DNA from: Phycisphaerales bacterium
Lineage (GTDB): Bacteria > Planctomycetota > Phycisphaerae > Phycisphaerales > UBA1924
Reading direction: 5' to 3'
DNA length: 32,088 nt
Assembly: GCA_029260475.1 (NCBI GenBank)
Contig: JAJDDE010000052.1
Coordinates: 1-32,088, forward strand
Positions 4,627 to 7,600 of the stretch are shown one piece after another. The notes beneath the pieces are model-generated. The model had not been told where the DNA came from, did not search any database, and worked only from the letters and a program-made list of their open reading frames with translations. How positions within the stretch are numbered: the stretch's first letter is position 1; each line of letters starts with the position of its first letter. Both the position numbers and the translations under genes were made by a program.

Positions 4627-4632
4627 AGGAGG
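4627..4632 (+). promoter_or_regulatory. Shine-Dalgarno sequence fixing the valS start
   Basis: AGGAGG lies 5 nt before GTG at 4638. This argues for that start rather than the in-frame ATG at 4569, which has no such sequence. It contrasts with several neighbouring genes that lack any ribosome-binding site. Confidence 0.75.
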
Positions 4633-4637
4633 CCCGT

Positions 4638-7600
4638 GTGTCGCCCTCGGATACCCCCTCGCCAACCACGTTGGATGCCAAGTACGTCCCCAGCGACCAC
4701 GAGCCGCGGATCGCCCAGCGTTGGCTCGACGCCCGCGCCTTCCACGCGGACCCCGCCCGGGTCCTCTCGGGTGATCGCGAGCCCTACTGCATCCTCATCC
4801 CGCCGCCCAACGTCACCGCCCGCCTGCACCTGGGGCATGCGCTGGTGAACAGCCTGCAGGACGTCCTCATCCGTGCGCACCGCATGAAGGGCTTCGAGAC
4901 CCTCTGGATGCCCGGCACGGACCACGCGGGCATCGCGACGCAGACGGTGGTGGACAAACGCCTCAAAGCAGCGGGCGAGCCCAGCCTCATCGACTACAAA
5001 CGCGAGGAGGCCGATGGCGGCCCCGGGCGCGAGAAATTCATCCAGAAGGTCCAGGACTGGAAAGACGACTACGAGGAACAGATCACCGACCAACTCAAGG
5101 CGATGGGCTGCTCCTGCGACTGGGACCGCCAGCGCTTCACGATGGACGAGATCTGCGCCCGCGCCGTCCGAGAGGCCTTCTTCCAGCTCTTCAAAGACGG
5201 CCTCATTTATCGCGGCAAGCGCCTTGTCAACTGGGACCCGGTTTCGCAGACCGCTCTCTCGGACGACGAGGTGGAGATGGAGGACGTCGAGTCCTTCTTC
5301 TGGTACCTCAACTACCCCGTCGTGGACGACAGCGGCAAGGAAACGGGCGAGCACGTCACCGTCGCGACCACGCGCCCAGAGACGTACTTCGGCGACACCG
5401 CGATCGCCGTGAACCCCGAGGACCCCGAGCGTGCGCGCTTCATCGGCAAGAAGGTAAAGCTCCCCTTCGTCGGGCGCATCATCCCGGTGCTCGGCGACGA
5501 CTACGTGGTCATGCCCGACCCCGAGTCCTCCGACAGCAAGGCGAAGTACGCCTCGGGCTTCCTCAAAGTCACCCCTGCGCACGACACCAACGACTACGAG
5601 ATCGGGCAGCGCCACGACCTCGAACAGATCAACATCATGGCCCCCGACGCCAGCATCTCCGACCAGCACGGCTGGTCCGACGTGGGCGACGCGAAGTGGG
5701 TGCTCGGCAAGAGCCGTGAGGACGCGCGAGAGCTCGTCGAACAGCACTTCCGAGACGCGGGCCTGCTCGCGGGCAAGAAGCCCTACGCGCACGCCGTGGG
5801 CCACAGCTACCGCAGCCACGTGCCCGTCGAGCCCTATCTGAGCGATCAGTGGTACTGCAAGGTGTCCGACGACCGCCTCGTCGGTAGCGCGCAACGTGCG
5901 CTGGCGTTGGACCAGCGGACGGAGCAGAGCCTCACGAGCTGGCCCGAATCTAGGCCTTCTGCCGGTGGGATGGGCTTCCAGCCCGTCCCGTTGGACTCCG
6001 ACACATCAAAGATCCCCGCGCGTCTCTCTATCCACCGCCGCCACCTGCCCCATTGGCAATCCGGTGGCAGCACCTATTTCATCACCTTCCGAGTGAAAGA
6101 CGGTGAGCTCTCTCCTGAGGAACGCGAGATGTTCCTCGACGCCTGTTTCCATTTTCATAACGACCGCTACACCTTGCACCTTGCGACCGTGATGCCGGAT
6201 CATGTCCATCTGCTCATCACGCCGAAGGAGCACAAAGACGGAGGCTGGTGGCCGCTTCAAGACCTGATCCACTCGATCAAGAGTTTCAGTTCCAACCAGA
6301 TCAACTCCACCCGCGGCACAGGCGGACCGCTCTGGCAGCAGGAGTATTACGACCGTCTTGTCCGCGACCATGACGAATTCGTTGAGAAGTGGAACTACAT
6401 GCTGATGAACCCGGTGCGAGCCGGTTTGGTGCCGCAGATCGGTGCCTACAACCACACACGCAGGGGCGATGCGGACGACCAACGGGACGGGCTGGAAGCC
6501 CATCCCACCGGGGAAGACACCGACGGCTCCCTCTGCTTCTCTCCTGCGCGTTATGCGAAGACCTACGAGGCTTGGCACGACGGCTTGCGCGATTGGTGCA
6601 TCAGCCGTCAGCTTTGGTGGGGGCATCGGATCCCGGTGTGGCGCATGACCGGTATGAGCCCGTCGGATGAGCAATACGGCGACCTGGGTTACCTACTGGA
6701 GCAGTGGGAATCAGAATCGCGCGTCGCTGTCCATCGCCGAGGCAAGGTTGGAGGTATCTCCGGGAAGGGGTTTGAAGGCCACTTCCAATCTGCGGGCAAT
6801 ATCTTTGTGTGCATCCGCGATCCGGCAGACACCGAAATTGCTGATTGGCTTCAAGCCAACGATCTCTTTACTCAAGACCCCGACGTCCTCGACACCTGGT
6901 TCTCAAGCGCACTCTGGCCGCTCTCCACCATGGGTTGGCCCAACGCAAACCTGCCTCGGGTCACACCCCGCCAGATCGATCCGGCGGACGCCTCGTCGAT
7001 CCGCGCCGTCTGGGTGAAGCGTGTCGGCACATGGAAAGAGTTCATCGGTTCCGCGGGCGACGAATCGGGCGAGCTCATCGACCGCCTGCTCCACATGCGC
7101 GACAACGCCACCACCGCCGACGGCGGACGCCCGCTTTCCTACCAGCTCTTCCGCGAGGCGGAGCTCCAGAGCGACGGCACGAAGGCCGACGCCCTCGCCG
7201 ACCCGAAAGACATCCAGGACGCTACCGACCTCATCTGTGCCGTGGGCATCAAGGAACAGGCCCCCGTCGAGTCCACCAAATACGGCGCGATCCACGTCGA
7301 GACCATGCTCCTCAAGCACGGATTCCAGGACACCGCCGGGCTCCTCGAAGCCTTCAACCCCTCCAGCGTCCTCTGTACTGGGCGCGACATCATCACCCTG
7401 TGGGTCAGCCGCATGGCGATGTTCAACCGCTTCTTCACCGGCGGCACGCTCCCCTTCACCGACGTCTACATCAACCCCATCGTGCAGGACGGGCACGGGC
7501 AGCGCATGAGCAAGTCGCTCGGCAACGGCGTGGACCCCCTCGACATCATCCATTCCCACGGCGCCGACGCGCTGCGCATGGTGCTCTGCCAGATCGCCAC

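Follow-up and report, generated by a model that had tools for sequence, protein, structure and literature searches.

The window studied here, 32,088 nucleotides in length, is contig C52 of a planctomycete draft genome (3.43 Mb in 210 contigs, 96.96% complete). It carries a valyl-tRNA synthetase gene, valS, whose GTG start is preceded by AGGAGG at 4627–4632, as read from the letters, and whose frame is free of stops from 4638 through 8771, across the whole of an insert (Table 1). A preliminary description of this DNA had noted a frame open for 1378 codons through the insert and had placed the insertion between the editing domain and WCISRQLWWGHR, and both readings stand; the position corresponds to residues ~364–376 of the T. 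thermophilus enzyme (1gax). The ORF scores above the curated TIGR00422 threshold (cut-off 612 bits), and the ValRS signature motifs HLGH, MSKS and WCISRQLWWGHR are all intact in the fused gene. The possibility raised at the time that another valS exists was followed up by a search of the genome, in which no second valS exceeded the TIGR00422 cut-off; three single-contig relatives, G066, G098 and G118, likewise have the interrupted valS as their sole copy above that score.

Table 1. Features of the interrupted valS gene and of the element that it contains (positions in the window).
Feature	Position	Strand	Basis or remark
valS, 1378 aa	4638..8774	+	TIGR00422 752 bits; GTG start; only valyl-tRNA synthetase of the genome
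REPtron-like element, 550 bp, in frame in the valS loop	5962..6511	+	perfect 33-bp inverted repeats; loop empty in relatives
5' REP-type palindrome, foot GTGG, in-frame translation GGMGFQPVPLD	5962..5994	+	inverted match; near copies elsewhere
RAYT (TnpA_REP) domain, stretch used in alignment A1	6024..6458	+	NF047646 95.5 bits; 4er8
HUH motif H522-V523-H524	6201..6209	+	read from the letters; identical in all rows of A1
Catalytic tyrosine Y587 in WNYMLMNPVRAGL	6396..6398	+	sequence; 10/11 rows of A1
3' REP-type palindrome, inverted copy, in-frame translation QRDGLEAHPTG	6479..6511	-	inverted match
Right flank, low GC3 (0.68–0.78 vs 0.91 beyond), possibly co-imported	6513..7019	+	composition; inference
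WCISRQLWWGHR, conserved ValRS motif shortly 3' of the insertion	6594..6629	+	sequence and relatives

By its catalytic motifs, profile scores and flanking repeats, the insert is a RAYT/REPtron. The perfect 33-bp inverted REP-type repeats named in the preliminary description are the longest exact inverted match between the element ends (5962–5994 versus 6479–6511), the letter-shuffled upstream part giving at most 10 bp. The intact Y1 transposase described between them was found as well: the insert exceeds the cut-offs of both NCBIfam NF047646 (cut-off 80 bits) and Pfam Y1_Tnp (28.7 bits, cut-off 23), its nearest solved relative by sequence profile is TnpA_REP 4er8 (E 2.7e-9), and HVH at residues 522–524 and Y587 are present (numbered from the GTG at 4638). 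The tyrosine motif, YMLMNP from Y587, fits the YxxxNP of class 2 TnpA_Y1. Cognate REPs are dispersed in the genome, with four near copies (2–3 mismatches in 31 bases) and none for a reversed control pattern, and no close second RAYT was found elsewhere in the genome. The REP foot, for which GTAG is the form associated with RAYTs, is GTGG in the window and GTAG in the close relatives G191 and G299, and over the embedded class-2 copies GTGG was counted 31 times and GTAG six times; a GTGG substrate is still cleaved in one REP system (PMC8266576). Inspection by eye of the bases adjoining the REP tips gave no convincing motif. The compositional anomaly in valS extends beyond the element coordinates given in the preliminary description, with GC3 at 0.89–0.92 left of the element, 0.76 inside it, 0.68–0.78 from its end to ~7019 and 0.91 thereafter, and the right flank was possibly imported together with the element.

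The arrangement, seen at first as a single curiosity, proved to be widespread in related genomes and in many host proteins. Among 301 genomes of the order, the same ValRS loop holds an in-frame class-2 RAYT in 27 and a class-3 TnpA in 16; in the set of 112 valS sequences, 69 are without a transposase, 27 carry a class-2 RAYT and 16 a class-3-like TnpA (43/112 filled), the class labels being assigned by profile scores. The stretch from SDQW to WCISRQ measures 46–134 residues in most relatives and 229–333 in many, the latter because a Y1 transposase lies inside. The class-2 and class-3 transposases of this loop are deeply different in sequence. Class 3 TnpA_Y1 proteins are known from Planctomycetes by their NHVH, W[TA] and Y....Q signatures and their terminal palindromes, and have been described only as genes (PMC6006769); the class-3 copies found here share these signatures and palindromes but, unlike those described, 16 of them lie in frame in ValRS. 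Class-3 copies were seen embedded in ValRS only, and the others found are free, among them two in the window's own genome (G000:C56:4029-4475 and G000:C10:8198-8605) with one and two stops in the matched stretch, which are possibly decayed.

The same loop is thus filled, empty or differently filled across the order, by transposases of two classes. A comparison with relatives lacking the insertion, proposed in the preliminary description, found the loop empty in the sister genome G047 and, in genus g59, an empty 76-residue loop in five species and at least four kinds of filling in six species, all at one junction between WPES.P (or a variant) and TDG. On the ValRS tree, presence and absence of a transposase require at least 25 changes, of which well-supported branches force at least 10; switching from class 2 to class 3 or back is needed 10 times. 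Four transposase-free valS loops, L081 (G050), L090 (G012), L036 (G015) and L075 (G046), hold a REP-like palindrome alone, in frame, with arms of 21 bp in G050 and 13 bp in G012, which suggests either remnants in this slot or insertions of a non-autonomous kind. The ValRS proteins of the window's group also carry further large variable inserts besides the RAYT loop, and in the window a lineage-specific stretch of valS at 6960–7360, between TWFSSALWPLSTMGWP and GRDIITLWVSRM, has a full-length match in only ~8/117 relatives.

Other lineages of the same RAYT occupy fixed loops of other essential enzymes. A search of the 301 genomes with a profile of aligned embedded RAYTs (threshold 120 bits) gave 56 class-2 matches, a count for one subfamily and not a census of all RAYTs, since the profile was built from embedded copies. 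At least 51 lie inside proteins, with ValRS (27), RdgB (12), LeuRS (10), KBL (1) and MiaA (1) as hosts; of the rest, three are free-standing, one is at a contig edge and one has a masked host. The RdgB and LeuRS copies were absent from the profile and were recovered blind. The RdgB copies share one loop, and the LeuRS copies one loop of the editing region with a single exception at a second site; genome G024 has three RAYT copies, one each in ValRS, RdgB and LeuRS. When 84,980 named species were scanned, at least 80 loci were returned, about 39 of them in frame in proteins among the matches listed. Hosts among these listed matches are ValRS, RdgB, IleRS, RecG, AlaRS, PriA, PurH, ThrRS and MetH, and further an HscA-like chaperone and DUF1156 or other DNA-methylase-like proteins; several lie outside the window's phylum. 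For every kind of host, the identity of at least one member was confirmed by NCBIfam and Pfam. On these profile matches, RAYTs of the same kind are present in about a dozen further housekeeping enzymes of related and unrelated bacteria.

Both REPs and the transposase are read in the valS frame, and the catalytic residues of the RAYT are kept. The unit in the window is probably best read as an autonomous REPtron (REP-RAYT-REP) that resides in frame, and apparently without splicing, in a variable loop of the only ValRS. Transcription and translation of the element would be those of ValRS, so that a promoter, start and stop of its own would be unnecessary; a frameshift or stop in it would kill an essential enzyme, so that selection on the host gene would guard the element's frame. 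The RAYT domain would fold beside the synthetase and might still act on single-stranded REP DNA. Permissive loops would be reached repeatedly by transposition and by recombination between valS alleles, as inteins home but minus the splicing, and the element would persist in loops able to take some 150–250 extra residues. The preliminary description had offered, as one of its choices, that the essential enzyme tolerates a nuclease domain, and of its choices this has the most support, since dozens of copies, spread over many genomes, are without exception open and in frame. The structure prediction that it had proposed for the fusion succeeded in part. The AlphaFold model of ValRS residues 10–1100 is poor overall (pLDDT 47.8, pTM 0.32), so that tolerance of the insert by the fold is supported indirectly; its editing domain (pLDDT 75–88) and RAYT core (73–81) are fairly confident, and a Foldseek search with it recovered 1gax and 1wk9. 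The model of an RdgB fusion (L212; 60.6 overall) has better parts than that of the ValRS fusion, and in a Foldseek search its single chain matched RdgB over the whole length (3tqu, TM 0.76 by target; 1k7k) as well as TnpA_REP (4er8, TM 0.59). The models support, short of proof, the transposase being a separate domain on a loop.

Alternatively, the insert might be taken out before ValRS becomes active, through processing or splicing of the protein, through ribosomes bypassing it where the REPs pair, or through RNA excision, and the essential nature of the interrupted gene and the capacity of perfect REPs to pair in mRNA would suit such a step. RNA excision or bypass needs no open frame, yet no stop was seen in the embedded copies of either class, which disfavours removal at the RNA level. 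Among the non-embedded class-3 copies above 150 bits, by comparison, 19 of the 53 listed have a stop in the matched stretch, some of which may be their own terminators. Neither Pfam nor NCBIfam detected a Hint, splicing or intein domain in the valS ORF. Processing of the product had been among the choices of the preliminary description, and nothing found here speaks for it. Removal of the insert is considered unlikely.

It is also quite unlikely that domestication has turned the RAYT into a functional part of its host enzyme, for instance a nucleic-acid-binding or regulatory domain of ValRS, and that it is kept for the host's benefit. Several of the hosts handle nucleic acids (ValRS, LeuRS, IleRS, AlaRS, ThrRS, MiaA, RecG and PriA), and the RAYT sequence is under purifying selection: dN/dS of the RAYT domain is 0.06–0.33 in 12 unsaturated pairs (Nei-Gojobori), values that are rough because of a strong GC bias at synonymous sites, which are often close to saturation. 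This selection could partly predate insertion, in a free-standing ancestor. RdgB, KBL, PurH and MetH are hosts as well. The patchy distribution even between sister species, with its 25 or more presence/absence changes, and the swapping of two unrelated TnpA classes in the same slot make domestication less likely. The flanking REPs are, moreover, retained: inverted repeats, counted where at least 2 bases longer than in any of 20 shuffles, are kept in 87/93 distinct embedded copies (median 23 bp, perfect). The HUH motif is intact in 77/77 class-2 copies and the tyrosine motif, by a strict pattern, in at least 69/77. The embedded RAYT of the G003 ValRS (L126/L080) has an intact HUH and a still open frame, the catalytic tyrosine being replaced (LVSIAENP), and is apparently inactive; since the tyrosine is lost in a few embedded copies such as this, some are probably inert passengers.

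A third reading takes the present copies as relics: an ancient insertion would have descended vertically along with ValRS and since been lost from most lineages. It would account for the grouping of RAYTs by host protein: over 124 class-2 RAYTs (82 embedded, at least 14 host kinds) 25 host-label changes were needed versus 73 in shuffles, and 10 versus 28 in the order-only set. This clustering by host protein and not by genome indicates that each RAYT lineage keeps to one site, in the manner of intein alleles; prolonged vertical residence, with many losses, could also produce it in place of homing. Against the relic reading, RAYT and ValRS divergence are uncorrelated within the ValRS copies (Mantel r 0.15, p 0.13), different RAYT lineages occupy one slot within genus g59, the catalytic residues are mostly intact, and a near-identical element occurs in divergent valS alleles. 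In the congeners G066 and G286 (genus g67), 750 bp are shared with one mismatch, while the adjoining ValRS is only 55–70% identical. The shared tract opens with the first base of the 5' REP and ends 132 bp past the element in WWGHRIP, so that one end is the REP tip and the other a conserved motif; the drop in GC3 at the left end of the window's element and its long low right flank form an asymmetry resembling this tract. The two valS genes (L093 and L135) are mosaics, 97–98% identical near the N-terminus, 55–70% over the editing domain, essentially 100% within the element, ~57% just past it and then 90–97%, a pattern read as recombination within an essential gene. Judged by these comparisons of sequence, the data show turnover and horizontal transfer of the embedded elements, and the relic reading is very improbable. 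Reuse of the same loops can reflect targeted insertion, recombination between alleles, or survival only in permissive loops. An assembly artefact or a pseudogene is hardly credible even for a metagenome-assembled draft of 210 contigs, as ~90 distinct copies share the arrangement in many assemblies, single-contig relatives among them (on which misassembly is rejected), with the frame intact in all copies and the ValRS motifs intact.

The apparently unspliced, in-frame REPtron can be set beside several known systems. With RAYT/TnpA_REP proteins and REPtrons (4er8) the window element shares the HUH motif and tyrosine, the inverted REP pair around the gene and the dispersed REPs. As genes, RAYTs and their REP specificity are known (PMC8266576, PMC6006769, PMC8049555), and described RAYTs are free-standing, REP-flanked, single-copy, vertically inherited, domesticated genes (PMC8049555), whereas the window element has no stop of its own, lies within the frame of an essential protein and belongs to a set with fast turnover. 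Intragenic REPs and RPEs are translated palindromes of ~20–82 residues in housekeeping proteins, including tRNA synthetases, for which a transposase is not mentioned (PMC3733652), in agreement with the remark in the preliminary description that in-frame palindromic insertions usually carry none. The window insert is no such short palindrome, having a complete RAYT, and inserts of its type reuse the same loops across genera; given that intragenic palindromes usually lack a transposase, an insert that carries one is what appears to be new.

Inteins with homing endonucleases reside in frame in essential proteins at fixed, allele-like sites, spread horizontally and contain a nuclease domain. Embedded RAYTs share with them the residence in essential proteins, the fixed sites, the spread among alleles and a nuclease domain; they differ in that the nuclease is an HUH single-strand nuclease and the sites are variable loops, where inteins have a homing endonuclease and occupy conserved catalytic motifs. 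As a tentative generalisation, which we hold at somewhat less than even confidence, REP-family single-strand transposases may follow an intein-like cycle without splicing in several bacterial phyla, as autonomous elements homing to fixed, permissive loops in essential enzymes, translated there as domains and maintained in an open frame by selection on the host gene. The searchable literature, with most subscription papers and all preprints outside it, gave no description of full RAYTs in frame in essential enzymes, at sites that recur and with many hosts; such apparently unspliced, intein-like residence of a mobile element thus looks undescribed, though priority is not certain. A model of REPIN persistence assumes that insertion of a copy destroys a gene and, where that gene is essential, is lethal (PMC8049555). 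In the genomes compared here, the transposase itself is repeatedly found in frame within essential genes, and it moves between alleles. This would explain how an element of low mobility preserves its frame, the cell being unable to do without the protein that contains it, and it makes testable an old question, that of the size and activity of the foreign domain that a housekeeping enzyme can carry.

There is also a consequence for annotation, as such proteins, labelled as a long "transposase" or "tRNA ligase", have so far been filtered out or overlooked; one classification dropped proteins of unexpected length, taking them for fusions or errors of annotation (PMC6006769). Two of the hosts from the named-species scan deserve mention. 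At L233:3654-6695, a PurH with an embedded RAYT is followed by a long DHRRDACATP repeat, which corresponds to tandem REPs translated in frame. In RecG, seven in-frame RAYTs among the matches listed occupy one site, all in Verrucomicrobia-type MAGs (L249, L250, L256, L271, L272, L280 and L282), just before VGTHALLF..VIDEQHKFGV, making RecG of these genomes a second fixed-site host system.
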